NCBI RefSeq assembly: GCF_001428305.1
Contig: NZ_LMRZ01000005.1
Location: 359,393 to 423,392, forward strand
Direction: 5' to 3'
From: Janibacter sp. Soil728
GTDB lineage: Bacteria > Actinomycetota > Actinomycetes > Actinomycetales > Dermatophilaceae
DNA length: 64,000 nt
Shown piece after piece: positions 49,157 to 64,000 of this stretch. The notes under the pieces were generated by a model that searched no databases, was not told where the DNA came from, and worked only from the letters and a program-made list of their open reading frames with translations. A program made the position numbers and the translations under genes. Each line of letters starts with the position of its first letter. Positions within the stretch are counted from its first letter, which is position 1.

Positions 49157-49257
49157 GTAGTAGGAACTCCGATTGTGGACAGATGATTGTGCGGGACGGG
49201 TGCATCGCACCCGCGTGCCCGGGTGGGCACACAAATACGCTTGCTCATCGTAGTGGG
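49157..49257 (-). promoter_or_regulatory. rpsA leader with two hairpins
   Basis: On the minus strand the leader has GTGCCC/GGGCAC (49230-49215, four-base loop), then CGGGTGC/GCACCCG (49213-49197, three-base loop), then about 40 bases to the ATG. A TATTTG stretch upstream may be the -10. The paired hairpins could support autoregulation by S1; this is inference. Confidence 0.35.
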
Positions 49258-49304
49258 TCCGGGGCGAAGGGAGCAAAGCAGGGTCGTCGACTAGCGTCCG
49301 CCCC

Positions 49305-50132
49305 ATGGACGAGCAGCACGTCGAGTACACAGAAGCGGTCAGCCGCCGGGCGAGCAGCCAGGCCGAGACGGTCACGGCCAACCGTGGCTGGTGGGACCAG
49401 GAGGCCTCTGCCTACCTCGTCGAGCACGGGCCCTTCCTCGGTGACGCCGACCTCGTCTGGGGCCCTGAGGGATGGTCGGAGGCCGACCTGCACGTGCTCG
49501 GGGACCCGGGCAGCCTCGAGGGCCGCACCGTCCTCGAGTTCGGCGGCGGTGGTGCTCAAGGTGGGCGGTGGTGCGCCGCTCGTGGCGCCCGGGTCGTCTC
49601 GACCGACCTGTCCGCCGGGATGCTGCGCTCGGCCCGGACGATCGATGCCCGCACCGAGGGAACGGCCCCACTGCTCACTCAGGCGGACGCCACGCGGCTG
49701 CCCTTCGCCGACGCGAGCTTCGACATCGTCTTCTCCGCATACGGGGCCACCCCCTTCGTCGCCGATTCCGCGGGGCTCATGGCGGAGCTGGCCCGGGTGC
49801 TGCGACCCGGGGGCCGGCTCGCCTTCTCGACGACCCACCCGATCCGATGGGCCTTCCCCGACGTGCCGGGTCCGGAGGGCCTGACCGCCACCATGTCCTA
49901 CTTCGACGAGCGGCCCTATGTCGAGGCCGAGTGGGACGAGGCCAGCTATGTGGAGCACCACCGCACCATGGGACACCGGATCGCAGAGATCCTCGACGCC
50001 GGGCTGATCCTGCGCGCCGTGCACGAGCCGGAATGGCCTCAGGACAACACCGAGGTGTGGGGCGGCTGGTCACCCTTGCGGGGCCAGCACCTCCCGGGGA
50101 CGGCGATCTTCGTCGCCACCCGGCCCAGCTGA
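49305..50132 (+). CDS. Class I SAM-dependent methyltransferase
   Basis: A 275-residue methyltransferase of the UbiE/type 11 group. Motif I is VLEFGGGGAQGGRW near residue 77, motif II region VVSTDLSAGML, and post-motif LPFADASFDIVFSAYGATPF. C-terminal WGGWSPLRGQHLPGTAIFVA is typical of an actinobacterial subfamily of unknown substrate. ATG lies seven bases after TAGCGT (49292-49297); probably leaderless. Stands alone between divergent rpsA and a terminator. Confidence 0.88.
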   Translation: MDEQHVEYTEAVSRRASSQAETVTANRGWWDQEASAYLVEHGPFLGDADLVWGPEGWSEADLHVLGDPGSLEGRTVLEFGGGGAQGGRWCAARGARVVSTDLSAGMLRSARTIDARTEGTAPLLTQADATRLPFADASFDIVFSAYGATPFVADSAGLMAELARVLRPGGRLAFSTTHPIRWAFPDVPGPEGLTATMSYFDERPYVEAEWDEASYVEHHRTMGHRIAEILDAGLILRAVHEPEWPQDNTEVWGGWSPLRGQHLPGTAIFVATRPS

Positions 50133-50220: not shown

Positions 50221-51213
50221 TCAGCGCCCGAAGACCGGGTCCTCGCGCGGGTCGTCGTTGCGCTCCGTCTCGGGGGTGCGGCGGCGCCCGATGACGAGCG
50301 AGAGCACCAGCCCGCCGAGGAGCAGCACGATCCCGAGGATCGTGAAGATCAGGGGCAGGGTCGACTGGACCATGTGCAGCTGCGCCGACTTGGACTTGTA
50401 GTCCTCGACATTGCCGGCGACCGTGTCCGGCGTGAACCGGGAGGTCGTCTCGAGCGCGTTGAGCGTCTTGCCGTTGTACCGGAACTCCTGCTTCTGCTCC
50501 TCGACGCGGTCGAGGACGACGCCGGTGACCGGGTCGACCCAGAAGGTGCGCTTGTTGGAGTAGTAGCGGTCGGCCTCGACAGCGCCGGAACTGGCGGACC
50601 CGCCGAAGAGGTTGCCCGGAAGCTCACGCGTCGCGTACTTGGTCTCCGGGACCTCCTGGGTGAACACGTAGGTGTTCATCCCCTGCAGGTCCTCCTCACC
50701 GGTGAACTTGACGGGGAAGGCGTCGCCGACCGTGCTGTCCCACCACGTGTAGGTGTCGACCGGCTGGGTGTCGAAGGGGAACTTCACGAGCAGGCCAGAG
50801 CGCTCGACGGCCTCGCCGTTCTTCGACTCGCCGCAGCAGTTGATGGCTTCGCCGGTGTGCCGGTCGAAGACGAGCACCTCGGTGCTGCCGTCCATCGGGA
50901 TGTTGTCACCGTTGTTGTCGCTGACCTGACCGCTGTTCCAGATCGCGACGTCCTTGCCGGTCTCCTCCGAGGCCTGCTTGGACGCCTCCGGGTCACCGAT
51001 GATGCGCGCCGTCGTCGTCAGCTCACCCTGGCCGGGCTCGACATTGTCGGCGTCGAAGAACTTGGCATTCGAGTCCTGCACGACCTGGGTCGTGTTCTGG
51101 TCGGTCGGAACGACCGCCAGACGCGGATATGCATAGAACTTGAAGAGCAGTCCCATGGTGAGGATGAACGCGCCGACACACATGATGATCATCGGCAGCA
51201 GGTACTTGCGCAC
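50221..51213 (-). CDS. DUF3068 (PorA-like) membrane-anchored surface protein
   Basis: A 330-residue protein with one membrane helix at residues 7-25 and another near 290-312, leaving a large extracytoplasmic domain between them and a short arginine-rich cytoplasmic tail. Segments such as DSTVGDAFPVKFTGEEDL, YVFTQEVP and WVDPVTGVVLDRVEEQ match the DUF3068 family, found in actinobacteria and often listed as porin PorA-like. An INCCGES cysteine pair lies in the outer domain. The GTG at 51213 has an AGGAGGG site, so the 42-residue longer frame is rejected. Placed at the edge of the envelope glycan cluster; function unknown. Confidence 0.8.
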   Translation of the reverse strand: MRKYLLPMIIMCVGAFILTMGLLFKFYAYPRLAVVPTDQNTTQVVQDSNAKFFDADNVEPGQGELTTTARIIGDPEASKQASEETGKDVAIWNSGQVSDNNGDNIPMDGSTEVLVFDRHTGEAINCCGESKNGEAVERSGLLVKFPFDTQPVDTYTWWDSTVGDAFPVKFTGEEDLQGMNTYVFTQEVPETKYATRELPGNLFGGSASSGAVEADRYYSNKRTFWVDPVTGVVLDRVEEQKQEFRYNGKTLNALETTSRFTPDTVAGNVEDYKSKSAQLHMVQSTLPLIFTILGIVLLLGGLVLSLVIGRRRTPETERNDDPREDPVFGR

Positions 51214-51335
51214 GAGAGAACCCTCCTTGGCCCTAAATAACTTACCGGACAGTAGCACCTCGTGAGCGCCGCCTCCGTCCGAGGACAGACTAGGCGACGT
51301 GGCCTTCACCACGTCGGATGAACGCGAGCGCCGTG

Positions 51336-51845
51336 TCACCGGCCCGCGGCCCCGAAGAGCCGGGAGACGACGAGGTCGACCGGACGGTCCACCCCGACCC
51401 GCTCGGTCCGCATCCCGAGATGGTCAGCGGGCGCCAGGTCGGACGGCATGTCGCCCACCATGACGCACCGACGCGCGTCCGCCCACGGCGCCCGACGCAG
51501 GGCCTCGCGGAAGAGGCCGTCGAGGGGCTTGCGACAGCCGCACTCGTCACGACCGTGCGGGCACACCACGATCGCGTCCAGCCGGCCGCCCTCCCCCGCG
51601 AGAAGGCCGGCGAGTCGTGCGTGCACCGCCACGAGGTCGGCGCGGCTCATCAGGCCGCGCGCGATCGCCCGCTGGTTGGTGACGAGCACCGTGCGACACC
51701 CGGCACGCGTGAGCCGACCGACCGCCTCGGCCGCCCCGGGGAGCAGCTCGAGATCGTCAGGGCGGGTGACATAGCCGTCCGGGACGCGGACATTGAGCGT
51801 CCCGTCGCGATCGAGGAGGGCGAGATCGAAGGGAGCACCGTCCAC
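51336..51845 (-). CDS. gmhB: D-glycero-D-manno-heptose-bisphosphate phosphatase (GmhB-like HAD)
   Basis: A 169-residue HAD-IIIA phosphatase. The nucleophile motif is LLDRDGTLN, motif II TNQ is VTNQRAIARGL, the zinc-binding loop is CPHGRDECGCRKP, and motif IV is MVGDMPSDL. These match GmhB, which removes the 7- or 1-phosphate in heptose precursor synthesis. The start is uncertain: GTG at 51845 is the first in-frame start giving a normal N-terminus but has no clear ribosome site; a start overlapping the gmhA stop with a non-standard codon is possible. Confidence 0.8.
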   Translation of the reverse strand: MDGAPFDLALLDRDGTLNVRVPDGYVTRPDDLELLPGAAEAVGRLTRAGCRTVLVTNQRAIARGLMSRADLVAVHARLAGLLAGEGGRLDAIVVCPHGRDECGCRKPLDGLFREALRRAPWADARRCVMVGDMPSDLAPADHLGMRTERVGVDRPVDLVVSRLFGAAGR

Positions 51846-51889
51846 GGGCGCGGGAAGCGCCGGCGGGCCGAACCACCACGGGCTCGGTA

Positions 51890-52498
51890 TCAGGACGGGT
51901 CCTGCATGGCCAGGTCGACCGCCTCGCACCAGGCATGCGCCCACAACATGTGGACCTCCTGGATCCGGGGGGTCTCGCTGGACGGCACGACGAGGAGGTG
52001 ATCGGCCAGAGCGCCCTGACCGGCCCCCTTCGCGCCGGTCATGAGGATGGTCGCCACGCCACGTCGTCGAGCCTCGGCCAGCGCCGCGACGACATTGGGG
52101 CTCGTGCCCGAGGTCGACATCGCCAGCAGGACGTCTCCCGGTCGCCCGAAGGCCTGCACGCCGCGCAGGAAGACCTGGTCGAAGCCGTAGTCGTTGCCGA
52201 TCGCGGTGAGCGACGAGTGCGACTCGGCAAGGCTGATGGCGGGAAGGGGGTGGCGGTCGTGGATGCACTTGCCGAGGAACTCCGCGGCCACATGGCTGGC
52301 GATGGCCGCCGAGCCGCCGTTGCCCGCGACGAGCAGGGTCCCACCCGCACGCAGCGCATCGAGCACGACCTGTCCCGCGGCCTCGACGGCCTGACGCTTC
52401 GCGGGCGCGCCGATCTGCTCCGCGAGCGCTACCCAGGCGGCGATCCCGGCACCGAGCTGCTGGGCCACGAGGCCGGTCCCGGTCTCGGTGGATGTCAT
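51890..52498 (-). CDS. gmhA: Sedoheptulose-7-phosphate isomerase GmhA
   Basis: A 202-residue SIS-domain isomerase that converts sedoheptulose 7-phosphate to D-glycero-D-manno-heptose 7-phosphate. Motifs are LLVAGNGGSAAIASHVAAEF, AISLAESHSSLTAIGNDYGFD and AMSTSGTSPNVVAAL, with the metal/catalytic residues of GmhA. ATG overlaps the hddA stop by four bases, so the genes are coupled. The substrate can come from the tkt/tal pathway encoded earlier in the window. Confidence 0.92.
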   Translation of the reverse strand: MTSTETGTGLVAQQLGAGIAAWVALAEQIGAPAKRQAVEAAGQVVLDALRAGGTLLVAGNGGSAAIASHVAAEFLGKCIHDRHPLPAISLAESHSSLTAIGNDYGFDQVFLRGVQAFGRPGDVLLAMSTSGTSPNVVAALAEARRRGVATILMTGAKGAGQGALADHLLVVPSSETPRIQEVHMLWAHAWCEAVDLAMQDPS

Positions 52499-53538
52499 TG
52501 CTGCCCCTTCCAGGTCGTGACGCCGTGCTTGGTGAAGGTGAACTCCGAGACCGACAGCCCCAGGCGGATGAGCTCGTCGGCGACGACGTGCCGCTTCTCG
52601 AACTCGCAGATGAAGATCATGTGCCCGCCACCGCCGGCACCCGTGACCTTGCCACCGAAGGCCCCGCAGCCGAGTGCCGTCTCCACGGCCTCGGCGATGA
52701 GGGGCGTGGTGATGCGCGAGGACATCTTCTGCTTCTGCTGCCAGGCCTGGCCGAGGAGGTGGCCGATCTCGTCGACCTTGCCGCGCAGGAGGGCCACGCG
52801 CATGGCGTCGGCGAGGTCGCGTTGGGCCCGCAGGCCCGCCACGGCGTCCTCGTTGCCCGTCTCGTACCGGGTGACCTGGTCCTCGATGATGTGGTCGCTC
52901 ACCCGCGTGCGGCCGGTGTAGGCCAGCAGCATGTTGTGCTCGAGCTCGTGGACGGTGTCGGGACGGATCCGCAGCGGGTTGACGACGACCTGGCCGTCCT
53001 GACGGAACTCCATGAAGTTGAACCCGCCGAAGGCGGCCGCGTACTGGTCCTGGTACCCGCCGGGGATCTGCAGGTCCTCACGCTCGAGCCGGTAGGCCAG
53101 CTCGGCGATCTCGTGCGGCCCCAGGTCCAGACCGCAGTGCCTGGCGACGAGGTCGATGACCGCGACCATGACGGCGCTCGAGCTGCCCAGGCCGGAGCCG
53201 GGAGGCGCATTGGTGTGCAGGAAGAGGTCGAACCCGTCGGAGCGGATGGCGCCCTCGAGGGTCATGATCCGAGCGATCGCGGCCTTGGGCAGGTCGAGGG
53301 TCCCGTCGAGCACGAGGGGGGTCCCCACCTCGTACCCGATCGAGGTCCCGTAGTCGTGCGACTCGACCGTGATGTGCCCGTCGGAGCGCGGCCGAAGGGT
53401 CGCGTAGGCATAGCTGCCGATCGTCGCACTGAGGACGGCTCCCCCTTCGCGCTGGGGGAAGGGGGCGACATCGGTGCCCCCACCGGCGAAACTGACCCGA
53501 AGGGGTGCGCGGGCGCGCAGCACGGGACGCACGGTCAT
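52495..53538 (-). CDS. hddA: D-glycero-alpha-D-manno-heptose 7-phosphate kinase HddA
   Basis: A 347-residue GHMP kinase. Motif 1 is RAPLRVSFAGGGTDV, the phosphate loop is PPGSGLGSSSAVMV near residue 110, and motif 3 is VTGAGGGGHMIF. With gmhA and gmhB this matches the GDP-D-glycero-alpha-D-manno-heptose branch (alpha-1-phosphate), which needs a guanylyltransferase (HddC) not present in the window. ATG at 53538 with GGGGAGG. The order acyltransferase, hddA, gmhA, gmhB resembles the mycobacterial Rv0111-Rv0115 region. Confidence 0.9.
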   Translation of the reverse strand: MTVRPVLRARAPLRVSFAGGGTDVAPFPQREGGAVLSATIGSYAYATLRPRSDGHITVESHDYGTSIGYEVGTPLVLDGTLDLPKAAIARIMTLEGAIRSDGFDLFLHTNAPPGSGLGSSSAVMVAVIDLVARHCGLDLGPHEIAELAYRLEREDLQIPGGYQDQYAAAFGGFNFMEFRQDGQVVVNPLRIRPDTVHELEHNMLLAYTGRTRVSDHIIEDQVTRYETGNEDAVAGLRAQRDLADAMRVALLRGKVDEIGHLLGQAWQQKQKMSSRITTPLIAEAVETALGCGAFGGKVTGAGGGGHMIFICEFEKRHVVADELIRLGLSVSEFTFTKHGVTTWKGQQ

Positions 53539-53578
53539 GGATGTCCTCCCCAGAGTGGAAATCAGCGATTATTACCGA
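53539..53578. promoter_or_regulatory. AT-rich divergent promoter hddA / acyltransferase
   Basis: The stretch GATTATTA (53567-53574) is the only AT-rich block here. On the minus strand it reads TAATAAT, a -10 for hddA with a leader of about 30 bases. On the plus strand GATTAT ends six bases before the ATG at 53579. The two -10 boxes overlap almost completely. Confidence 0.45.
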
Positions 53579-54796
53579 ATGGTAGGCGACGAGATCAGCA
53601 CCGCGAGGCATCGTCCGGGACGCATCCTGGGACTCGACCTGCTCCGGGCCGTCGCGGCATGGCTCGTCCTGCTCTCGCACGTCGCCTTCTGGACCGGGGC
53701 CGGGGCGCACGGCACGCTCGGTGGTCTGGCCGTTCGGGGAGAGCTGGGTGTGGCGGTCTTCTTCGCGCTCTCCGCCTTCCTGCTGTCCACCCCCTTCGTC
53801 CGTCGTGGGCTGGGCGGGCACGCGCTGTGGTCCACGGGCCGATATCTCGTGCGGCGCGCGGCGCGCATCCTCCCCGCGTACCTGGTGACGCTCGTCGCGG
53901 TCGTCGCCGTCGCCGCCGCCCTGGGTGGCGCGGCGGGCAGCGTGCTCGACCTGCCCACGGTGCTCGTGCACCTCGTGGTCGGCCAGGGGTTCAGCGGTCG
54001 CACCTTCCAGTCCTTCACCCAGACCTGGAGCCTGACCACAGAGATCACCTTCTACCTCCTCCTGCCTCTCATCGCGCTCGTCGTCGCCCCCCTCGTGCGC
54101 GCCGACTCCCCCGCCGCCCGGGCGCGGCGGATGCTCGTGCTGTGTGCCGTGATCGCCGTCGGTGGACTGTGCGTGCAGGCAGCCTCGGTCCTCGTGCCCG
54201 ACCCCCAGTGGGCCGGCGTGCTGGCCACGAGTGCTGCCGGGCACGCGGCGTGGTTCGCGATCGGCACGGCGACGGCGGTGCTGGTCGAGGCCGAGCGGGC
54301 CGACATCGAGGTGAGCCCGCGACCGATGCTGTCGGTCCTGCGCTCGAGCCCCGGGACACTCCTGCTGCTGGCCCTCGTCGTGTGGATCATCGCCTCGACC
54401 CCCGTTGCCGGTCCACGAGGCATCGAGGCCCCGACACCTGCTGAGGCATTGGCCGCCGAGCTGCTCTACGGGGTCGTCGCCGCCTGCCTGCTGCTCGCCG
54501 GGACCTCGCGCGGCCTCACCGAGTCCCTCACGTCCTCACCCTGGGCGGGTCTGCTGCGCTGGCTCGGCAACATCTCGTACGCCGTCTTCCTCTGGCACGT
54601 CCTCGTCCTGCAGGTGGTCTTCGCCATGCTGGACCTACGACTCTTCGCGGCGCCCTTCGCCCCGACACTGCTCCTCGTGACGGTCGTCAGCGTTGGCCTG
54701 GGGCACCTGTCGTGGACGCTGGTCGAGCGTCCGATCCTGGACCGCGCACACCGCGCCTCGGTCGCACCAGAGCCGCAACCAGCACCCCGAGGGTGA
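53579..54796 (+). CDS. Membrane acyltransferase (family 3, OafA-like)
   Basis: A 405-residue acyltransferase-3 protein with about ten membrane helices. LGLDLLRAVAAWLVLLSHVAFW carries the catalytic-type histidine, followed by GELGVAVFFALSAFLLSTPFVRR, RRAARILPAYLV and TQTWSLTTEITFYLLLPL; C-terminal ISYAVFLWHVLV holds a second conserved His. It likely O-acylates a cell-surface polysaccharide. The ATG at 53579 is preferred (leaderless box); an upstream ATG at 53537 overlaps hddA. Its last 110 bases overlap the end of the convergent aftD gene. Confidence 0.9.
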   Translation: MVGDEISTARHRPGRILGLDLLRAVAAWLVLLSHVAFWTGAGAHGTLGGLAVRGELGVAVFFALSAFLLSTPFVRRGLGGHALWSTGRYLVRRAARILPAYLVTLVAVVAVAAALGGAAGSVLDLPTVLVHLVVGQGFSGRTFQSFTQTWSLTTEITFYLLLPLIALVVAPLVRADSPAARARRMLVLCAVIAVGGLCVQAASVLVPDPQWAGVLATSAAGHAAWFAIGTATAVLVEAERADIEVSPRPMLSVLRSSPGTLLLLALVVWIIASTPVAGPRGIEAPTPAEALAAELLYGVVAACLLLAGTSRGLTESLTSSPWAGLLRWLGNISYAVFLWHVLVLQVVFAMLDLRLFAAPFAPTLLLVTVVSVGLGHLSWTLVERPILDRAHRASVAPEPQPAPRG

Positions 54797-57700
54797 GTGC
54801 CCCGAGCAGCTGCGAGACGAGCGAGCCGGCTGACTGACGCTCGGCCACTCCGAGCACGGCGAGCGCGACACCGGCTCCGGTCAGGACCAGGGCGACGGCC
54901 AGGGCGCGGCGGCGCAGCGGCACCAGGGCCCCGACGACGGAGGCCAGCATCCCCAGCGGGCCGGCCACCAGGAGGCCGACGACCGCGGCGGCAAGGGCTG
55001 GGGTGAGCACGACCAGAACGGCGGGTGCGCCGGGCCCTGCCCCCTCGGCCGACGCCGCACTGCCGTCCACGCTGTCATCGGCATGGTCATCCTCAGCACG
55101 GCTCTCGCCGTCCACTGCGTCCGTCGCGTCAGGGCCACGCGCTGCGGCGCGGCGCCGCACCACGATCTCGAGCAGCGCCCACAGGCACAGGAGCACGACG
55201 AGCGCTGCTCCACCGGCCAGCGCGAGTCGGTGCTGCTCGTTGGGCGCGAAGTCGACCACGACCCGGGACGTACTGCCCTCCGGGACGACGAAGGCCTGCC
55301 GCCACCCGTCCACGGTCACGGGCTCGAGCTGGCGCCCCTGATCGTCCGTGGCGCGCCACCCGGCATTGGCTCCCTGGCTCAGGGCCAGCACGGACCGCCC
55401 GCCGGGGCCGACGTCGAAGACCCACCGGCCGACGTGCTCACGGCGGCTGGTCACCGTGCGCTCCGGCGCGACCTGCGTGCGGGTCCACCCGGTCGGGACG
55501 AGCGAGACCGTCTCCGGCAGCAACCCGGGGACGGCGCGCGCGCTGACCTCACCGTCTCCCGCCGGGAGATCACCGCATGCCGTCGCCGGGACCGGCTCAC
55601 CGGCGATGAGGGCGCGACGTGAGGCGGTGAGGGACAGCCCGATCCGCCCGTCGTCCCGACCGACCGCGCCAGCCTCGCTGCAGGGCAGGGTGAGCGGACC
55701 TGTCGGCCCGGAGAGGCCGTCGAGGCTCACCTCGGGCGCTGACCACGAGGCCCGCCCCGCAGGCCGGGTGAAGGTCAGGGAGAGGGTCCGCGTGCGTTGC
55801 TCGGGGATCCGCAGGCTCGTCCCGGTCGGGAGCACGTAGCGCCCGGAGTCCGTCGCCACGGTCACCGACCCGGCAGGACGATCGAGCGTGAGGGTGCTGA
55901 CCTGCTTCTCGGCGCCGAAGTCGAGCGCGAGGGTGGGTTCGGCGGTGCGTGCGGACGGACGCCAGCGGGTCGCGGGATCCTTGTCGATCGCGGCGATCGG
56001 CCACGCCGTCAGCCCGTCGGCGGGCCGGGCGTCGTCGGGCAGGGTGCTGCCGCCAAGACTCCACGGCGCGGCGACCACCGCCTGACCGGACTCGTCCGCG
56101 CGGGCTCGGACCGTCGCGGACACCGTGGTCTGCGGCAGCGGCCCCACGCGCCGCACGAGGTCTGGCGGGTCCTCCCCCAGCTCGGGGTCCGCCGCGCCTC
56201 GGGGGTCCCTCGTGAGGAGGACCGGTCCGGGTCCCTCCGGGACGCTCAGGCCCGTCGACAGCCGTGGTCCGTCCTCCAGCTCGAGCTCACGCACCCCCAG
56301 GGGTTGCTGTGCGGTGCCGGCGAGGCCTGCGTCAGCCGTCAACGAGATGGTCAGTGTCCGGCGTTCCCGGCCGTCGAGCGGCACCCGCCAGGTCGTCGTC
56401 CCCCGCAGGCGGTGGCCCTCGCTCCCGTCGACCTCGACCCCGGCGATCCTGGCGATGTCCGCACCCCAGGCCTCGTGGAGCAGGAGCGCGTCCGGTCGGC
56501 TGCCGTCCGGCAGGTCCACGGTGACGGTCTGGGTGGGTGCCTCGTCGCCACTCAGCCAGGCAGTGCGTGAGTCACCGTCGACCATCGCGGCCGGTCCGTG
56601 GCCCGCCCCGCGCCAGTCGGCGGCGAAGGGGTCAGCAGCGCTGGAGCTGACGTGCAGCGCGTCGAGCCCCTCGTAGAACCGCGTCGTCCGCCCCACCGCG
56701 GTGCCTCCCGGGGCCAGATCGCGGGTCCCCACGACTCCTGGTCGCACGTCGTCAGCAGGCAGTGTCGGCCCGTGGCCGCGTGCCGGGGGGCGACCGGAGT
56801 TCAGTGCCTGCCACCGCAAGGTGTCGGACCGGACGTCAGCGTGTGCGCCGTCGGACGCCGTGGTCAGTGCGTCGGGGTCGAGCAGCCCCGCCGCGACGAG
56901 CGCGAACCAGGCCTCGGGCGCACCCGCCACGGAGACCGTGCTCGCGCTCGGCACGAGGGACGCCGGGGTTGCCGGCTCGTCCAGCCGCCACACGCTGATC
57001 CGCTCGGTGCCCTCCCCCACCGATCCGGCGAGGCTCACCCCGGGACTCGCGGAGAAGGTCGCTGCCACCTGCCGCGAGTCCACGGCACCGACATCCGGGT
57101 CGAGGCCTCCTCGGACGACGACCCGTGAGACGCCCAACCGCCGCAGGCCCTGGGCGAGCGTGGGCTGGCTGCGTCCGGTCGCGGTGAGATCGTCCACCCG
57201 GTCGAGGATGCGGGTCGCGCCGGGGTGTCCCAAGGGCGCGGCCGCCCGGACGAGCACCGGCGAGCTGGCGAGCGCCGTCAGGGGCTCGTCGGTGAGCCGA
57301 CCCCACGTGAAGTCCGCACTGCGCGCGCCCGGCAGGACGAGCGTGGTCCCCCCGTCGGTCGCGGCCATCGAGTCGATGTCGGCGGCGATGTCCTGCCACG
57401 CGGTCGGCACCCCGTCCGCGGCCCAGGCATCGCCCACCCGTGATGCCCACAACGGAGCCAGCGAGCCGACGAGGGCCAGCACCGTCCCGACGACGACCAC
57501 CTGACGCACGAGTGCCCCGGCACCACGCTCGACCCGGGTGGCCCAGTGCGCGAGCAGTCCGACGCCGATCGCCACGGGCAGCCGGATCAGCACATCCGCC
57601 TTGTGGACATTGCGGAAGGGAGCGAGGGACCCGTCGAGCCAGCCCTGGACCGTCGTCGACAGGGGGCCGGAAGCCGACCCGGAGCGGCCCACCGCCATGA

Positions 57701-58763
57701 CGACGACCCCGACGAGGACGAGCGTGAGCGCCCACCGGGTGAGGTGGCGACCGGCCACGGACGCAGCCTCCCCCCCGGCGTCGTCGTGACCCGAGCGGCG
57801 ACGGACGAGACCGGCGAGCCCGAGGCCCGCCACCGTCGTCGTCGCGATGATCCCGGTCACCGACTGGGCCAGCAGCCAGCCGCTCTGCCAGGTCGGGTGA
57901 TCGCCCCCCGTGAGGATGTAGGCGATCCAGTGGTTGGCGCCCCGCAGCACATTGGTGACGGACGCGACCGCGGTCGTCGTCGAGGCGAGCTCGATGTGGT
58001 CGAGGAAGGGGTACGAGTAGCGGCCGAGGACCACGAGCGGACCGAGCCACCACGCGGAGCCGAGGGCTGCTCCCCCGCACCACCAGAGCAGTGCGCGCCA
58101 GCGGCGTCGCCCGCCCGGCGCCAGCACGATCCACGCGGCCGCAGGGACCAGGGCCACCAGCGAGACGGTGGCGTTGACACCGCCGAGGCACGCGGTCAGC
58201 AGACCGGTCCCCACCGCCATGCGCCGACGGGTCGCGGGCAGGGCACCGGGGGCCACCCCCTTCGCGGCGAGCAGGACCAACCACGGGGCGAGCGCCTGGG
58301 GCCACACCTCCACCGAGATCTCGGACAGCACGGTGAGCACCCGAGGCGACAACGCGAAGGCCGCGCCGACGACCAGTGCCGGGATCGTGGGCAGTCCGCC
58401 CACGCGTCGAGCCAACAGCTCCGCACCCACGAAGGAGACGACGAGGATGAGCGTCCACCACACCCGCTGGGTCACCCAGCCGGGGGCTCCGACAGCATCT
58501 CCCGCCAGGAAGACCGGGCCCATCGGCCAGAGGTACCCGTAGGCCTGGTTCTGCAGCTCTCCGATGCCGGTGTGGTCGTTCCACGCCCACAGGGCCCGTC
58601 CCAGGTAACGGCCCGGGGAGATGACGAGGTCGCTCTTGGTGTCGGGTTCGAGCATGCCCGGGGCCACCAGCCAGGGGATCACCGCGACGAGCAGGACCGC
58701 GACGATCCGCTGCAGGCGCGCCCTGGCGACGTCGACGACGCTCGGGTCGCTCCCTTCGGTCAT
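54687..58763 (-). CDS. AftD-like arabinofuranosyltransferase (DUF3367 family)
   Basis: A 1358-residue protein. Residues ~20-460 are a multi-span GT-C type membrane domain (about eleven segments; EPDTKSDLVISPGRYLGRALWAWN in the first outer loop). Residues ~460-1220 are extracytoplasmic and include two discoidin/F5-8-like carbohydrate-binding stretches (VDGDSRTAWLSGDEAP and IDKDPATRWRPSAR). Residues ~1225-1355 add more membrane helices. Size and domain order match mycobacterial AftD, an alpha-(1,3)-arabinofuranosyltransferase. The donor and acceptor in this organism are unknown. Start overlaps the upstream methyltransferase stop; the last 36 codons overlap the acyltransferase gene. Confidence 0.88.
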   Translation of the reverse strand: MTEGSDPSVVDVARARLQRIVAVLLVAVIPWLVAPGMLEPDTKSDLVISPGRYLGRALWAWNDHTGIGELQNQAYGYLWPMGPVFLAGDAVGAPGWVTQRVWWTLILVVSFVGAELLARRVGGLPTIPALVVGAAFALSPRVLTVLSEISVEVWPQALAPWLVLLAAKGVAPGALPATRRRMAVGTGLLTACLGGVNATVSLVALVPAAAWIVLAPGGRRRWRALLWWCGGAALGSAWWLGPLVVLGRYSYPFLDHIELASTTTAVASVTNVLRGANHWIAYILTGGDHPTWQSGWLLAQSVTGIIATTTVAGLGLAGLVRRRSGHDDAGGEAASVAGRHLTRWALTLVLVGVVVMAVGRSGSASGPLSTTVQGWLDGSLAPFRNVHKADVLIRLPVAIGVGLLAHWATRVERGAGALVRQVVVVGTVLALVGSLAPLWASRVGDAWAADGVPTAWQDIAADIDSMAATDGGTTLVLPGARSADFTWGRLTDEPLTALASSPVLVRAAAPLGHPGATRILDRVDDLTATGRSQPTLAQGLRRLGVSRVVVRGGLDPDVGAVDSRQVAATFSASPGVSLAGSVGEGTERISVWRLDEPATPASLVPSASTVSVAGAPEAWFALVAAGLLDPDALTTASDGAHADVRSDTLRWQALNSGRPPARGHGPTLPADDVRPGVVGTRDLAPGGTAVGRTTRFYEGLDALHVSSSAADPFAADWRGAGHGPAAMVDGDSRTAWLSGDEAPTQTVTVDLPDGSRPDALLLHEAWGADIARIAGVEVDGSEGHRLRGTTTWRVPLDGRERRTLTISLTADAGLAGTAQQPLGVRELELEDGPRLSTGLSVPEGPGPVLLTRDPRGAADPELGEDPPDLVRRVGPLPQTTVSATVRARADESGQAVVAAPWSLGGSTLPDDARPADGLTAWPIAAIDKDPATRWRPSARTAEPTLALDFGAEKQVSTLTLDRPAGSVTVATDSGRYVLPTGTSLRIPEQRTRTLSLTFTRPAGRASWSAPEVSLDGLSGPTGPLTLPCSEAGAVGRDDGRIGLSLTASRRALIAGEPVPATACGDLPAGDGEVSARAVPGLLPETVSLVPTGWTRTQVAPERTVTSRREHVGRWVFDVGPGGRSVLALSQGANAGWRATDDQGRQLEPVTVDGWRQAFVVPEGSTSRVVVDFAPNEQHRLALAGGAALVVLLCLWALLEIVVRRRAAARGPDATDAVDGESRAEDDHADDSVDGSAASAEGAGPGAPAVLVVLTPALAAAVVGLLVAGPLGMLASVVGALVPLRRRALAVALVLTGAGVALAVLGVAERQSAGSLVSQLLGALTLGVLVAALVRPRRGVRGPGSDARPASTTGAPGQR

Positions 58764-59482
58764 CGGCGACGCAGGATGAGCAGCAGGTTCCAGGTGATGA
58801 CCTCACGCACGCCGGGCAGCCGCAGGACGTGTGCCGCCACGTCCGGCAGATAGCGCGGGCGGGCGGCGAGCACGTCGGCATCCGCCCCGTGCGCCCAGTC
58901 CAGCCCCTGCCGCACGCTCACCCGGTGCAAGGTCTCTCCGACCCGGTTCTTGGGCGGGTGACCGTGCTTGCGCTCGTAGCGCGCGATCGCTCGCTGACCG
59001 CCCAGCCAGTGCCACGGTGAGGTCTCGTGACCACCCCAGGGCGAGAGCCAGTTGGTGTAGGACAGGAAGACCAACCCGCCGGGTCGCGTCACCCGCAAGA
59101 GCTCGTCGGCCACGGCCTCCGGGTCGGGGACGTGCTCCCACATGTTGCTGGAGAAGACGATGTCCACGCTGCCGTCGGCGACCGGTAGGCGGAGGGCATC
59201 GCCCACCACTCCCCCGTCGCGGACGGACGCGACGCTGGCGTCGTGGTCGACGGGGACGTAGTGGGCGCCTGCGGCGCGGAAGGCCCGAGCGAACTCGCTG
59301 GGTCCCGCCCCCACATCGAGGACGGTGCGCCCCTCGAGGGAGGTGTGCTCCCGCAGGAGGGCGATCGAGTCCCCGGCCAGCTCGGAGTAGAAGCGGTGCG
59401 GGTCGCTCTGCTCCACCAGGAAGGAGCGGAAGAGGCGCACCGAGCGGCGCACGCCGCGAGGCATCGGCTCACTGGAGGTCAT
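58760..59482 (-). CDS. Class I SAM-dependent methyltransferase next to aftD
   Basis: A 240-residue methyltransferase with motif I LDVGAGPSEFARAFR near residue 58, VPVDHD, and SVDIVFSSNMWEHVPDPEAVADELLRVTRPGG. The WLSPWGGHETSPWHWLGG stretch is characteristic of a subgroup that sits beside AftD homologues. ATG at 59482 is seven bases from a GGAGG site; a GTG at 59488 is too close to it. Four-base overlap with aftD implies coupled translation and a possible role in modifying the same glycan or its lipid carrier (inference). Confidence 0.87.
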   Translation of the reverse strand: MTSSEPMPRGVRRSVRLFRSFLVEQSDPHRFYSELAGDSIALLREHTSLEGRTVLDVGAGPSEFARAFRAAGAHYVPVDHDASVASVRDGGVVGDALRLPVADGSVDIVFSSNMWEHVPDPEAVADELLRVTRPGGLVFLSYTNWLSPWGGHETSPWHWLGGQRAIARYERKHGHPPKNRVGETLHRVSVRQGLDWAHGADADVLAARPRYLPDVAAHVLRLPGVREVITWNLLLILRRR

Positions 59483-59495
59483 CGGCACGCCTCCA

Positions 59496-60368
59496 TCATG
59501 GACGACGCGCGATCAGCTGGATGGTCGGGCGGCTGCGCGGCGAGACCAGACGCTGCCCGACGACGAGGGGAACGCTGGCGACCGCGGCCGCGAGGACCGA
59601 CCGGGAACCGAGGACACCGCGAGGTCGCGGGCCGGGACGCACCGCCCTCGCGAGGCTGGCCGCATCGACGCTCAGGCTGTCGAGGAGCAGCCGGCGGACC
59701 CGGATGTCGACGAAGCCGGCCTTCGCGGCGGCGCGGGCCAGCGAGTCGGCCGAGAAGAATCGGATGTGGGTCGGGTCCTCGAGCATCCACCAGGCGGCCC
59801 CGTAGCGCTCGACCCCGGAGCTGTCGCCGGCCGGCGTGATGAAGCTGGCCCGGCCCCCGGGGCGCAGCAGCTCCCAGGACGAGCGCAGCGCGATGTGCGG
59901 GTCGGTGACGTGCTCGAGGACGTGGATGCCGTAGACGAGATCCTGCTCGCCCGGAAGTCTCGAGGCGTCCTCGATCCCCCCGACCCGCAGGTCGCCGCGG
60001 GCCCGCACGACCTCGTCGACACCGACACCGAGCTGGTCGGGATCGACGCCGGCGACCTCGGCACCGTCGTCGAGGAAGCGCCGCAGCATCGACCCGGACC
60101 CGTAGCCGACCTCGAAGACCCGCGACGGCACACCATCACGCACCAGCTCCCGATAGGTCAGGTCGAGCCGGATGCGGTCCAGGGTCGGCTCGCCGCCATA
60201 GGCCAGGTCACGGTGGTCGGCGGGGCACCGCTCCAGGTCACGCCGCAGGTGCCCGCAGCGCTCGCACTGCTCCACCACGCACCCCCCGCGGATCGCGTAC
60301 CCGCGCACGACGGCATCGCACACCTCACAGCCGACGTGGCCACTCTCACCTACCGTTGGGTAACTCAC
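59496..60368 (-). CDS. Methyltransferase with N-terminal zinc ribbon
   Basis: A 290-residue protein. An N-terminal Cys cluster (CEVCD near residue 14 and CERCGH near residue 35) resembles the zinc ribbon of SAM methyltransferases acting on sugars (as in TylF/NovU C-methyltransferase relatives). The Rossmann part has VFEVGYGSGSMLRRFLDDGAEVAGVDPD and YGIHVLEHVTDP. GTG at 60368 lies six bases after TAGGCT (60380-60375), no ribosome site, so leaderless. Thirteen bases before the next methyltransferase on the same strand. Target unknown; sugar methylation is inference. Confidence 0.85.
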   Translation of the reverse strand: MSYPTVGESGHVGCEVCDAVVRGYAIRGGCVVEQCERCGHLRRDLERCPADHRDLAYGGEPTLDRIRLDLTYRELVRDGVPSRVFEVGYGSGSMLRRFLDDGAEVAGVDPDQLGVGVDEVVRARGDLRVGGIEDASRLPGEQDLVYGIHVLEHVTDPHIALRSSWELLRPGGRASFITPAGDSSGVERYGAAWWMLEDPTHIRFFSADSLARAAAKAGFVDIRVRRLLLDSLSVDAASLARAVRPGPRPRGVLGSRSVLAAAVASVPLVVGQRLVSPRSRPTIQLIARRP

Positions 60369-60423
60369 AGCGTTAGCCTATCCGTCGGTGCCGCGACAGC
60401 CGTGACGCCGACAAGGAGTGACG
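60369..60423. promoter_or_regulatory. Divergent region methyltransferase / GT4 gene
   Basis: TAGGCT on the minus strand (60380-60375) is the leaderless -10 of the methyltransferase gene. The plus-strand GT4 gene has an AAGGAG ribosome site at 60413-60418. A plus-strand promoter was not recognised in these 55 bases and may lie within the methyltransferase coding region. Confidence 0.4.
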
Positions 60424-61662
60424 ATGACGCCGACCACGGCAGCCCCGAAGGAACGACTTCGGGTCCTCTACCTCTCGTGGCGCGACCGGGAGAATCCCGA
60501 GGCCGGAGGGGCAGAGACCTTCACCGAGCGGACCTCCGAGGTCCTGACGCAGGCCGGGCACGAGGTGACGATCTTCACCGCGTCCTTCCCCGGCGCCAGC
60601 CCGCGCACCCAGCACGGAGACGTGTCCGTCGTGCGCCGCGGCTCGAAGTTCAGCGTCTACCTCCACGGCATGTGGCACGTCCTGCGGCACGGCCGCAGCT
60701 ACGACGTCATCCTCGACGTGCAGAACGGCGTGCCCTTCTGGGCGCCCCTCGTGGCCAGGGTGCCGGTCATCAACATCGTCCACCACGTCCACCGCGACCA
60801 GTGGGGTGCCGTCTTCGGCCCCAAGATCGCCCGCCTGGGCTGGCTCCTGGAGTCCAAGGTCGCACCGCGGGTCTACCGCGGCAGCCGGTACGTCACCGTC
60901 TCGAAGTCCACGCGCGCCGAGCTCGAGGAGCTGGGAGTCGACCCCCAGCGCGTCGACCTCGTCTACTCGGGCAATGACCGTCCCGCCGATCTCGATCGTT
61001 ATGCCCGTCTGGAGCGCACCGAGACCCCGACCATGCTCTTCCTGGGGCGGCTCGTCCCCCACAAGCACGTCGAGCAGGCCGTCGACATCCTGGCCTCCCG
61101 CGCTCAGACCCACCCTGATCTGGAGCTGCACGTCGTCGGTGGCGGCTACTGGGAGGCAGCGATCGCCGACCACGCGCGCGCCCTCGGGGTCTCCGACCGC
61201 GTGCACCTGCACGGCTTCGTCGAGGAGTCGCACAAGCACGAGCTGCTCGCTCGGGCGTGGGTCGTCGTCATGCCCTCGCACAAGGAGGGCTGGGGGCTGA
61301 CCATCGTCGAGGCCGGCCTGCACGCCACCCCCGCGGTCGCCTACAGCTTCGCCGGCGGCCCCAGCGAGTCGATCGTCCATGGACGCACCGGCCTGCTCGC
61401 CGACTCCGTCAGCGAGTTCGAGGAGCACGTCATCACCCTCGTCGACGAGGCCGCCCTGCGCCGCGACCTCGGCCGCACCGCCCGGCTGTACGCGAGCTCC
61501 TTCGACTGGGTCCGCGCCGGCCACCGCCTGGAGTCGGTGATCCGTTCCGTCCTCGGCCTCAGCGATCGCTACCGCGACGACGTCATCGACCTCGACGCGC
61601 TCATCGCCCACCGCACGGTCGAGGAGTCGCCCGTCGACGAGCTGGCGGCCGTGGCCTCCTGA
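60424..61662 (+). CDS. Glycosyltransferase family 4
   Basis: A 412-residue GT-B retaining glycosyltransferase. The N-terminal domain begins RVLYLSWRDRENPEAGGAE with the donor-side glycine loop, the linker is VSKSTRAELEELGV, and the C-terminal domain carries the nucleotide-sugar motif MPSHKEGWGLTIVEAGLHATP (E-x7-E) followed by FAGGPSESIVHGRTGLL. It would add a sugar from a nucleotide donor on the cytoplasmic face. ATG at 60424 is five bases from AAGGAG. A strong hairpin follows. Confidence 0.9.
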   Translation: MTPTTAAPKERLRVLYLSWRDRENPEAGGAETFTERTSEVLTQAGHEVTIFTASFPGASPRTQHGDVSVVRRGSKFSVYLHGMWHVLRHGRSYDVILDVQNGVPFWAPLVARVPVINIVHHVHRDQWGAVFGPKIARLGWLLESKVAPRVYRGSRYVTVSKSTRAELEELGVDPQRVDLVYSGNDRPADLDRYARLERTETPTMLFLGRLVPHKHVEQAVDILASRAQTHPDLELHVVGGGYWEAAIADHARALGVSDRVHLHGFVEESHKHELLARAWVVVMPSHKEGWGLTIVEAGLHATPAVAYSFAGGPSESIVHGRTGLLADSVSEFEEHVITLVDEAALRRDLGRTARLYASSFDWVRAGHRLESVIRSVLGLSDRYRDDVIDLDALIAHRTVEESPVDELAAVAS

Positions 61663-61685
61663 CCGGTCACCACACCGCACCACGC

Positions 61686-61725
61686 CGAAGGGGGCGTCCG
61701 CTCAGCTGAGCGGACGCCCCCTTCG
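61686..61725. terminator. 40-base palindromic terminator
   Basis: A perfect palindrome from 61686 to 61725 with no separate loop bases; the outer ends are CGAAGGGGGC and its complement. It lies between the convergent GT4 gene and the small DUF2613-like gene. Confidence 0.85.
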
Positions 61726-61743
61726 CGTGGGGTGTGGGGCAGG

Positions 61744-61899
61744 TCAGCTGTTGTAGTTGATGACCTGGTCGTTGGTCTGCGGCATCGAGGCACTGCTCTG
61801 CACCTGGACGATGCCGAAGATCGCGAGGGCGGCCAAGAGCGCGCCGACGACGGTGCCGCCCACGTTGTAGGCGATCTTCTTCGAGGCGTCGTTGTTCAC
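61744..61899 (-). CDS. Small membrane protein, DUF2613-like
   Basis: A 51-residue protein: a short basic start (NNDASKKIAYNVGG), one membrane helix (about residues 13-32, VVGALLAALAIFGIVQVQ) and a polar tail ending MPQTNDQVINYNS. The GTG at 61899 has a GGAGG site seven bases upstream. Length, layout and location in an aftD neighbourhood match the DUF2613 small secreted/membrane protein encoded beside aftD in Mycobacterium (Rv0236A). The family assignment is by eye. Function unknown; it could be an accessory subunit of the AftD-like enzymes. Confidence 0.75.
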   Translation of the reverse strand: MNNDASKKIAYNVGGTVVGALLAALAIFGIVQVQSSASMPQTNDQVINYNS

Positions 61900-61989
61900 T
61901 GGTGGTCCTCCATGGTGCGGATACGAATCGTGCCCACTGTATACCGGCCGGTCACTTGCCGCGACCCCGTCCGGGGTGTCGCCCTCGTC

Positions 61990-63666
61990 TCACTCACGAC
62001 GGTGACGAAGGAGCACCACAGCGCTGAGCAGGACGGCGCCGGCCGTGCCCAGCAGTCCCAGTGCGCGCAGCCGGTCCGGTGGAGGTGCGCTCTGGGTGCT
62101 CGGGCCCAGGTCGTGCACCTCGAGGTCGCCCACCGTGGTGGTCGGGGTGCCCGACAGGTCCGGCACGGAGCCGGCCGGAGCGGGTTGGTCCCGCTGCACG
62201 ACGACCCACCGGACGCCGAGCGAGCGCAGCACCGCGACGGTGTCACCCCCTTCGTCCAGGGAACGGGTGACCCGTGCTGCCGCCGGGTCCTCGCCCGCCA
62301 CCGTGCCGTCCCTCAGCGGGAGTCGGTCGTCGGAGACCACGGGCTGCGGCAGGAGCCGGTTCCACGGGTCGAGGACCACCCGGTCGTCATTCCACGCGTA
62401 GCGCCGATATGTGGACCAGGGGAAGACGGCGACAGGGTCGCCCGAGTCCGCGAGCTGCTGGGTCACCGTGCGCACGTCCTGCGGGTAGTCGACGCTTCCC
62501 CACGCTCCGGCGTGGCCCCAGGCGAGCGAAGGGAGGGTGGCCACCGGCCACGCCACGGCGAGGAGCATCGGCACCACGGGGGCCTTGCGCTCGACCAGCC
62601 GGTCCACGACGACCGCGGTGGCCACCGCGAGCAGCAGGACCCACAGTGCAGTGAACTTCTGAGCGTCCCGCAGGAGCCCGCCGCCCGGGACGTGTGTCAC
62701 GACCGCCTCGAGCAGGCCGGGGCCTCCGGGCACCGCCGCCAGGGCGGCCACGAGCAGTCCGATCACGCCGGCAGCCGTCGCGGCCCGCTCCCTGGGTTCG
62801 CTCCACCAGCTGCGTCGACCCACGGCGAGTGCGAGCACCAGGAGGACCGCGACAAGGGCAGCCAGAGCGACCGGCCAGGTCGTCCGTTCGACGAACCAGG
62901 TGCGGTCGTTCCACAGCCCGCCGCCGAGGACGAGAGATCCCACGACACCGAAGGGGGTGTCCGCGCCCGCCGCGAAGGCATCGGCCCCCTGGGCATCGGC
63001 CGCCTTGGGCGCCGAGCGGAGGAAGGGCCACCACCACGCCGCGTTGGCCAGCAACGAGGTCCCGATGACGATCGCGAGGTCGCGCAGCACCGCGCGAAGA
63101 GGTCCGCCGATGCACACGACGGTGACGGTGGCCAGCACGGTGGCCAGCACACCCGGGGTGGACCCGCCGAGTGCCGCGGCCGTGAGCGCGACCACCAGCA
63201 GCGCCCGGCCGCGCCGGTGCCTCACCCGGGTGGCAGCCGACAGGACCCAGGGCAGCATCGCGAAGCCGAGCAGGTAACCCCAGTGGCCGATGCCCAGACG
63301 CTCGCCGACCCACGGGTTCCAGGACCACAAGACCGCGGCCGCCGCAGCACCGGGCACCGTCCGCGCGAGACGTCCCGCACCGGCTCCTCCCACGACGAAG
63401 GCACCGAGAAGCAGGATCTTCTGCACGAGCCAACCGGGCAGCACCAGGCCGAGGAGCGCGACGACGAGGTCATTGGGAACCGCCCTGGGGACACTGCCGT
63501 CGATCCCGAGGGTGCGTGCCGACAGGGACAGGTCAGGGACGAAGACGAGGTCGTAGTGGAGGGTGTAGCCCGGGGCCAGCGCCGGCCCCAGGGCCAGCAG
63601 CCCGAGCACCACCCCGATGGCCGCGCCGACGGCGGTGAGGTGCCGCTCCCCCTTCGTCATCGACAC
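61990..63666 (-). CDS. Large polytopic membrane protein, GT-C-like (AftD N-terminal-like)
   Basis: A 558-residue protein with about twelve membrane segments, the last at the very C-terminus. The N-terminal outer loop has HYDLVFVPDLSL, acidic residues placed as in GT-C glycosyltransferases, and the WSWNPWVGERLGIGHWGYLLGF segment recalls the membrane half of AftD. A soluble stretch (about residues 400-520) follows. No carbohydrate-binding modules are seen. GTG at 63666 is one base after the upstream stop; an ATG at 63660 is an alternative start. Probably a second glycosyltransferase of the cluster; donor and acceptor unknown. Confidence 0.8.
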   Translation of the reverse strand: MSMTKGERHLTAVGAAIGVVLGLLALGPALAPGYTLHYDLVFVPDLSLSARTLGIDGSVPRAVPNDLVVALLGLVLPGWLVQKILLLGAFVVGGAGAGRLARTVPGAAAAAVLWSWNPWVGERLGIGHWGYLLGFAMLPWVLSAATRVRHRRGRALLVVALTAAALGGSTPGVLATVLATVTVVCIGGPLRAVLRDLAIVIGTSLLANAAWWWPFLRSAPKAADAQGADAFAAGADTPFGVVGSLVLGGGLWNDRTWFVERTTWPVALAALVAVLLVLALAVGRRSWWSEPRERAATAAGVIGLLVAALAAVPGGPGLLEAVVTHVPGGGLLRDAQKFTALWVLLLAVATAVVVDRLVERKAPVVPMLLAVAWPVATLPSLAWGHAGAWGSVDYPQDVRTVTQQLADSGDPVAVFPWSTYRRYAWNDDRVVLDPWNRLLPQPVVSDDRLPLRDGTVAGEDPAAARVTRSLDEGGDTVAVLRSLGVRWVVVQRDQPAPAGSVPDLSGTPTTTVGDLEVHDLGPSTQSAPPPDRLRALGLLGTAGAVLLSAVVLLRHRRE

Positions 63667-63667
63667 G

Positions 63668-64000
63668 TCAGGACCGGTGCAGGGCTTCGATCTCGGCGAA
63701 GGCGGAACCTATGGCCGCGCACTGGGTGGGCAGGTCGTGGTGGGTGAGCGCATGGGCGCGGTTGGCCACGGCGACCTCCGCCCGCACACGCGGGTCCCGC
63801 AGGAAGTGCAGGAGCGAGTCCGCGAGTGCTTCGGCGTCGTCCTCCACCAGACGGTTCGGGGGCTGGACGGCTTCGTCGTTGGTGCCACAGCGGGTGGTCA
63901 CGATCGGCAGCCCGCAGGCCAGCGCCTCGAGGTAGGCCAGACCGAGCTGCTCGGTCCACTTCCACGTCGGACGCGGCGCCGTGGTGAAGACGGCCGCGGA
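63668..64000 (-). CDS. Glycosyltransferase family 4, C-terminal part (5' end outside window)
   Basis: The last 110 residues of a GT-B enzyme. EQLGLAYLEALACGLPIV contains the E-x7-E nucleotide-sugar motif, followed by TTRCGTNDEAVQPPNRLVEDDAEALADSL and a terminal helix. The reading frame is open to the window edge, so the gene starts to the right. It lies directly upstream of the polytopic membrane protein with a one-base gap and is probably the preceding gene of the same operon. Confidence 0.85.
   Translation of the reverse strand, partial: SAAVFTTAPRPTWKWTEQLGLAYLEALACGLPIVTTRCGTNDEAVQPPNRLVEDDAEALADSLLHFLRDPRVRAEVAVANRAHALTHHDLPTQCAAIGSAFAEIEALHRS

Follow-up and report, generated by a model that had tools for sequence, protein, structure and literature searches.

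Gene content of the locus

The DNA analysed here is a stretch of 64,000 nucleotides from Janibacter sp. Soil728 (the window; G000:C5:359393-423392 of a genome of 3.64 Mb), whose last part, from position 50221 to position 64000, holds a cluster of genes that we identify with the tmaT locus of the Corynebacterineae together with aftD. A previous sequence-only reading had listed the genes of this cluster and suggested that they could build a heptose-containing, acylated and methylated, arabinan-like polymer; Pfam and NCBIfam scans place all of the listed genes where that reading put them and identify its second GT-C-like protein as MmpA. The genes are as follows, f6 being a mycolate-making family used for comparison.

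50221..51339 (probable start about 51210), minus strand: pgfA/lmcA (DUF3068; PF11271 and NF053601), a beta-barrel with a long helix at each terminus.
51336..51845, minus: gmhB-like HAD phosphatase (HAD Pfam families; best NCBIfam match heptose-bisphosphate phosphatase, 122 bits, below the cut-off of 178).
51890..52498, minus: gmhA-like phosphoheptose isomerase (SIS_2; best NCBIfam matches phosphoheptose isomerase, 168/159 bits, below the cut-offs).
52495..53538, minus: hddA-like GHMP heptose-7-phosphate kinase (GHMP Pfam families; best NCBIfam match HddA, 278 bits, below the cut-off of 600).
53474..54796 (start between 53474 and 53579), plus: acyltransferase-3 (AT3), TmaT-type by position (PF01757, 89 bits).
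54687..58763, minus: aftD1, an AftD-type GT-C glycosyltransferase of 1358 amino acids (PF11847, 520-522 bits, cut-off 26; phmmer, 6e-90 against AftD 6wbx).
58760..59488, minus: mtrP-type methyltransferase (45-68% identical to the other nine members of the MtrP alignment, of which four are from f6).
59496..60368, minus: second methyltransferase (MT2), lineage-restricted (Methyltransf_23; relatives in L040, L061, L075 and L078-L080).
60418..61662, plus: GT4 glycosyltransferase, cg3166 counterpart (Glycos_transf_1; the locus GT4 enzymes from six f6 stretches are 37-44% identical to it).
61744..61899, minus: DUF2613 small protein (PF11021, 24.3 bits, cut-off 22.1).
61990..63666, minus: mmpA, predicted GT-C glycosyltransferase related to AftD (NF053599, 372.9 bits, cut-off 210).
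63668..64000, minus, running on to 64777 (L004:3668-4777): second GT4 (GT4b), complete beyond the window edge.
Right of the window edge: aftD2, a second AftD-type gene, 1468 amino acids (PF11847, 186-190 bits, cut-off 26; CBM_AftD).

The AT3 gene is convergent with aftD1 and overlaps its 3' end. All three heptose proteins fall below the curated NCBIfam cut-offs, so that the names gmhA, gmhB and hddA are given by best match only. The counterpart of cg3166, and hence of the window GT4, in M. tuberculosis is presumably Rv0225.

PgfA scores 260 bits both against PF11271 (cut-off 29.5) and against 'cell envelope lipid trafficking protein PgfA', the equivalog NF053601 (cut-off 160), and MmpA, for which the Pfam scan returned no match, is recognised by the equivalog NF053599, 'MmpA family trehalose lipid delivery protein'. 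Both proteins also exceed these cut-offs in each of five other genomes (5/5 each), of which one belongs to f6. The ten-sequence MtrP alignment has 53 invariant columns, distributed along the whole protein, and the conserved blocks of the window MtrP are common to the mycolate-family MtrP. Judged from these comparisons, it is close to certain that PgfA, MmpA, AftD and MtrP are those of a tmaT/aftD locus, and the acyltransferase and GT4 are likely its counterparts too.

Relationship to the tmaT locus

The tmaT locus (NCgl2759-NCgl2765; cg3163-cg3168; Rv0226c, Rv0227c, Rv0228 and neighbours), taken with aftD (cg3161), clusters the same six gene families as the window, namely PgfA/LmcA, a TmaT-type AT3, AftD, MtrP, GT4 and MmpA, an identity that the sequence-only reading missed. 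That reading held the AftD link to be unlike the mycobacterial region, which proved wrong: C. glutamicum cg3161-cg3168 brings together AftD, TmaT, LmcA, MmpA, a glycosyltransferase (GT) and MtrP, and all six families are found together in 5/9 fetched f6 stretches (L041, L042, L043, L045 and L049). The likeness it drew to Rv0111-Rv0115 has to be widened, the closest relative being the tmaT locus plus aftD and not solely that region. Among the other four f6 stretches, L044 holds five families, with AftD not in range, and L047 holds PgfA, AT3 and AftD; in L046 and L048 a second PgfA copy stands alone.

The literature drawn on here comprises PMC8698533 and PMC8972800 and, besides these, PMC9678360, PMC7775120, PMC9558356 and PMC11127046. 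The reported order of C. glutamicum cg3161-cg3168 is AftD, cg3162, TmaT, cg3164, cg3165, a putative GT, cg3167 and MtrP; we take cg3164 to be LmcA and cg3165 to be MmpA since TmaT and the GT flank them, as they do in the locus of PMC8698533. Read in the same direction, the f6 order (L042) is AftD> AT3< PgfA> MmpA> GT4< MtrP> and that of the window is MmpA> GT4< MtrP> AftD> AT3< PgfA>, so that two three-gene blocks have swapped places. The relative strands of AftD/AT3, AftD/MmpA and PgfA/AT3 are equal in the fetched f6 loci and the window. Over and above the tmaT locus, the window locus has the heptose genes, a second AftD type, GT4b, a GT2 and MT2 and, unlike the hosts of the tmaT locus, the window genome is without mycolate or decaprenylphosphoryl-arabinose (DPA) markers.

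Mycolate and arabinan markers

Searches for EmbC and Pks13 covered 50 genomes, comprising 46 of the 65 PgfA-positive genomes described below and four without PgfA. EmbC was present in 14/50, these being the 14 f6 genomes of the set without exception, in none of the 32 other PgfA-positive genomes and, in a genome-wide search, not in the window genome. The same 14 f6 genomes alone carry a one-protein, full-length Pks13 (>2580 bits); the fifteenth Pks13 row over the cut-off, G023, owes its score to a sum across a modular synthase. Weak Pks13 matches, as from any ketosynthase, occur in 42/50 genomes including that of the window, which has two (best E 2.8e-28), neither over the cut-off. Two further markers were sought in 18 genomes. 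The mycolate-family DPPR synthase query matched in four (two f6, G128 at 47% and G343 at 20.7 bits) and in neither the window genome nor three other members of its family. DprE1 gave matches in 18/18 at a loose threshold, at least 366 bits in three only (two f6 and G128) and at most 51.3 bits elsewhere, the level expected of related oxidases; a true DprE1 was not found in the window genome, whose six matches are at background level (best 41.8 bits). The statement that no mycolate or arabinogalactan genes accompany the cluster is thus extended to the whole genome for the four markers EmbC, Pks13, DPPR synthase and DprE1. Lacking EmbC, DPPR synthase and true DprE1, the window genome is missing the known arabinose-donor route, and an arabinan product was rejected because the donor route (DPPR synthase, DprE1) was not found there.

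G128, a large genome of another family (L053), holds AftD1, MtrP, GT4 and PgfA together and, apart from that locus, a DPPR synthase (47%) adjoining a DprE1 (46%) at G128:C1:3891864-3894859, for which reason it may make a pentofuranose donor; the same marker searches found neither EmbC nor Pks13 in it.

Matches to the MptB family are patchy among carriers of the locus (8/18 genomes at E 0.001, seven over the cut-off). Their distribution does not track the locus, and lipomannan (LM) and lipoarabinomannan (LAM) were set aside as its general product.

Distribution and gene order

Of 396 genomes sampled across the phylum, 65 have a DUF3068 match, which exceeds the cut-off in 64. A profile built from the ten MtrP sequences returned 593 relatives in genome_contigs, and the best 80 of the 593 were examined as named loci, with genes called by profile search at our own thresholds and MtrP counted present by selection. 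All six core genes were found at 30/80 and five at 27/80, so that 57 of these best 80, with Kribbella, Nocardioides, Nonomuraea and Micromonospora among them, have five or six; for the 53 loci with about 10 kb on both sides the figures are 24 with six, 21 with five and 8 with fewer (45/53 with five or six). The neighbourhood comparison proposed earlier therefore finds the genes conserved together. Their clustering exceeds chance, here and in the window's family. Mycobacterium, Corynebacterium, Nocardia and Rhodococcus are absent from the titles of the best 80 and, in chemotaxonomic terms, Kribbella, Nocardioides, Nonomuraea, Actinomadura, Jiangella and Micromonospora are not known to contain mycolic acids.

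Three strand relations are constant. AftD and AT3 lie on opposite strands, AT3 downstream of AftD, in 53/53 named loci and 5/5 f6 loci holding both; AftD and MmpA share a strand in 60/60 named and 5/5 f6 loci; and PgfA and AT3 are opposed in 48/48 and 6/6, respectively. Accessory genes differ from genus to genus. The closest named relative among the best 80 is a Janibacter metagenome-assembled genome (MAG), with an MtrP identity of 86% and a DNA identity of 76-79% along the shared stretch.

The locus has been described as conserved in corynebacteria and mycobacteria (PMC8698533, PMC8972800), MmpA has been stated to lack homologues outside these groups (PMC8698533) and one paper states that DUF3068 proteins are exclusive to actinobacteria. 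A word-based literature search returned, among the matches listed, no statement of the locus outside Mycobacteriales.

The heptose genes

The heptose genes are, by the sequence comparisons, a real lineage-specific part of the locus. Among 119 genomes of the window's family, PgfA is over the cut-off in 70 (71 at E 0.001), AftD is present in 63, all PgfA-positive, and the second AftD type, as read from the table (136-211 bits, partial G481 matches set aside), in 36, all within the 63. A close hddA (at least 68% identity) is found in 27/119, the window genome included, all of them within the 36; three more matches at 34-38% identity were left out. In 27/27 this hddA lies on the PgfA contig, 755-10,501 bp away, and within 1.4 kb in 24/27; the hypergeometric values for these family counts, which ignore kinship, are a guide only. 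The suggestion that these genes form one envelope-glycan system, heptose genes included, is borne out across the family as a conserved locus; the heptose part of the proposed polymer gains from this linkage, and the arabinan part, for which the known donor route is missing, is not supported.

Outside the family set, heptose genes occur in 5 of the best 80 named loci (L075 and L077-L080), one of which is an Aeromicrobium MAG; the Nocardioides and Kribbella loci in view are without them. Rv0111-Rv0115 of M. tuberculosis, which we take to comprise hddA, gmhA and gmhB with an adjoining acyltransferase, differs from the window in that the heptose genes are here embedded in a pgfA-aftD locus. For the last enzyme of a GDP-heptose pathway (gmhA, gmhB, hddA, hddC), an hddC was sought only beside polA, where the nucleotidyltransferase is a better fit to mannose-1-phosphate guanylyltransferase (290, cut-off 440) than to HddC (85, cut-off 300).

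MmpA and AftD

The AlphaFold2 (AF2) model of MmpA has a mean pLDDT (predicted local distance difference test) of 92, and its best PDB match is AftD 6w98 (E 6.9e-9, TM-score 0.59 by query). The oligosaccharyltransferase AglB comes second (E 5e-4) and is the sole other enzyme at E of 0.001 or below; DPY19, OST, PglB, ArnT, AftB and Emb proteins lie behind it with E >0.001. Alignment of MmpA to the N-terminal domain of AftD by hhalign spans 461 columns with a probability of 99.0 and an E-value of 2.4e-18. All of 37 MmpA sequences share residue D39 of the first outer loop, and this residue aligns with D45 of AftD1, which is invariant in 16 AftD sequences; AftD2 has a glutamate at this position. 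The acidic residue would be the GT-C catalytic base. A profile of the MmpA alignment found nothing among PDB sequences, and the link to AftD is visible only by fold and by profile-profile comparison. Since MmpA matches the GT-C domain of AftD in these two ways, it is probably a GT-C glycosyltransferase. With no Pks13 over the cut-off in the window genome, its known substrate is not expected there.

The window AftD shares with AftD the GT-C domain and an F5/8-type C domain; its host, unlike those of AftD, is without the known arabinose donor route, and membership of the AftD family does not fix the sugar.

In a midpoint-rooted tree of 42 MmpA rows, six f6 rows form one clade (99/95) and the window's own family is split in two, for which reasons the tree does not date the locus; that the locus is older than mycolates is inferred from its spread. 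The MmpA of L035 and L037 (family members G085 and G139) forms a long branch separate from the window type, which may mean that the locus exists in two versions within the family.

PgfA

The AF2 model of 50221-51210 (pLDDT 93) has as its best Foldseek match LmcA 7shw of M. smegmatis (TM-score 0.81-0.82 by target), and the predicted fold is an LmcA-like beta-barrel with terminal membrane helices. The LIMP-2/CD36 family comes next, a likeness reported before for LmcA (PMC8972800). PgfA/LmcA (MSMEG_0317, Rv0227c, NCgl2760) has the same family model and fold as the window protein, from which it is remote in sequence (20-22% in Foldseek alignments), and trehalose mycolate is not expected in the window host.

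PgfA-family genes stand apart from most or all locus genes of the fetched stretch in L046, L048, L051, L052, L054, L060, L063-L069 and L071-L074, and paired neighbouring copies were seen in G432, G469, G494 and G181.

Flanks and chromosomal position

Extending the contig rightward, as had been advised, shows that the locus continues for about 11-12 kb past the window, where a GT2, AftD2, a polysaccharide flippase, a methyltransferase, an AT3-like gene and a sugar-nucleotidyltransferase precede polA; the AT3-like gene is recognised from its sequence by reading and has a weak blastp match to the window acyltransferase (4e-7). The left flank consists of a methyltransferase and an S1-domain protein read as rpsA, with TerC farther out. 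The locus thus lies between rpsA (window 47639-49381) and polA (L004:15848-18628), both assigned by sequence reading. Of 93 stretches searched, 10 have a polA match and 11 an rpsA match; several further genera have one of the two close to the locus, and L121 has both. As the flank recurs in other genera, the chromosomal place of the locus may be old. In three stretches of the deep family f20 (L055-L057), relatives of the GT2, AftD2 and flippase adjoin PgfA and MmpA, an arrangement like that on the right side of the window's locus. A phage, a plasmid or a recent island was dropped as an explanation, GC content being high throughout and the locus being present in many genera (phage and plasmid collections were not searched).

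Discussion

What the sequences establish are the identities of the genes, their conserved company and the absence of four mycolate and arabinan markers. A mycolate-linked gene set with heptose genes, in a genome without key mycolate genes, suggests some other surface glycan or glycolipid as product, and on balance we favour, with fair confidence, an actinobacterial locus for the assembly of an envelope glycan or glycolipid, homologous to tmaT-lmcA/pgfA-mmpA-GT4-mtrP plus aftD, in a host with neither mycolates nor a DPA-fed arabinan. Cytoplasmic GT4 enzymes would start a lipid-linked saccharide, which MtrP would methylate or otherwise act on and the TmaT-type acyltransferase would acylate; the flippase would carry it outward, where MmpA, AftD1 and AftD2 would add sugars from polyprenyl-phosphate sugars other than DPA. 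The lipid part would be handled by PgfA, whose membrane-anchored barrel resembles those of LmcA and CD36/LIMP-2. A subset of the family would add heptose via gmhA/gmhB/hddA, along with the second AftD-type enzyme. On this view, Mycobacteriales would have recruited the machine for trehalose mycolates and LM/LAM. A wider proposal, which we put forward tentatively and at somewhat less than even confidence, is that the TmaT-PgfA-MmpA-MtrP-AftD machine is an older actinobacterial envelope system and not a mycolate invention, that its core is the GT-C pair of MmpA and AftD, with MmpA truly a glycosyltransferase, and that the product assembled and exported by mycolate-free carriers is an acylated glycolipid or lipid-linked glycan, containing heptose in part of the window's family.

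Several points weigh against the glycan-assembly reading. Fewer than five core genes are found at 23/80 named loci, most Frankia-type loci having MtrP alone, and other layouts are under-sampled because the loci were picked via MtrP. Not all strand relations are constant: of the 59 named loci with both MmpA and GT4, 26 have them opposite and 33 have them on one strand, and of the 65 with both MtrP and AftD, 34 have them on one strand and 31 have them opposite. PgfA relatives also exist outside the locus, and 7/70 PgfA-positive genomes of the family have no AftD match. The identity of TmaT rests on position and on a profile seeded with f6 genes, acyltransferase-3 being a large family. We know of no product or activity for the locus outside Mycobacteriales. 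A partial likeness of MmpA to AftD was earlier taken to mark a membrane anchor and not an enzyme (PMC8698533, 2021). In C. glutamicum, MmpA, MtrP and TmaT serve the acetylation and transport of trehalose corynomycolate, and LmcA serves LM/LAM (PMC8698533); with the roles so split, a single pathway for the six genes is not established even there.

If PgfA/LmcA and its neighbours extended or finished a phosphatidylinositol-anchored mannan, the locus would serve the maturation of a lipomannan-like lipoglycan, a special case of the glycan-assembly reading, so that the likelihoods of the two are not mutually exclusive; we regard it as unlikely. Without NCgl2760/LmcA, C. glutamicum makes truncated LM and no LAM (PMC8698533), and MptB-family matches exceed the cut-off in family members G139 and G307, but the window genome has only a partial match of 26 bits (cut-off 40) and there is none in G085, G214 or G042, carriers of part or all of the locus. 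Moreover, loss of tmaT, mmpA or mtrP leaves LM/LAM of C. glutamicum unaffected (PMC8698533), and in M. smegmatis, whose PgfA binds a trehalose-mycolate analogue, PgfA depletion leaves LM/LAM migration unchanged, with LAM increased. The acetylation and export of trehalose lipids as in corynebacteria, acting on another long-chain trehalose ester made without Pks13, would account for TmaT-type, MtrP and MmpA genes lying together as in C. glutamicum. It strikes us as very improbable, given that no one-protein Pks13 exceeds the cut-off in the 36 non-f6 genomes searched (trehalose-lipid genes were not searched for) and that a glycan would seem a better fit for the GT4 enzymes, the heptose genes and the two types of AftD.

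It might also be argued that the locus is an ordinary island for a capsule or an O-antigen-like polysaccharide, whose likeness to the tmaT locus reflects merely how common GT-C and GT4 enzymes, acyltransferases and methyltransferases are. It is indeed flanked by genes for a flippase, a GT2, a GT4 and a nucleotidyltransferase, accessory genes vary among genera and some strand relations vary; yet PgfA and MmpA meet specific equivalog models and not generic domains, the same six families recur jointly in many genera, and the invariant columns of MtrP run protein-wide, all of which makes this explanation quite doubtful. The product of the earlier reading, a heptose-containing, acylated and methylated arabinan-like polymer made by AftD-type enzymes, can appeal to two AftD-type genes, one matching mycobacterial AftD at 6e-90, and to the tight linkage of the heptose genes; against the missing EmbC, DPPR synthase and true DprE1, and with a family membership that leaves the sugar open, we give it scarcely any credence.

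For the glycan-assembly reading, the interest lies in what it would mean for proteins studied so far as mycomembrane factors, as PgfA, MmpA and TmaT have been, with the role of DUF3068 disputed between trehalose mycolates and lipoglycans. Proteins of the window genome and of G042, both without mycolate markers, score far over the cut-offs of NF053599 and NF053601, models whose names refer to trehalose-lipid delivery and polar growth, as do proteins of genera not known to make mycolates. Mycolate-free carriers, for which Flexivirga, Nocardioides and Kribbella are candidates, allow a direct separation of the two roles proposed for PgfA. If MmpA is a GT-C enzyme, the phenotype in acetylation and transport would have to be read differently, and names such as 'trehalose lipid delivery protein' would need revision.

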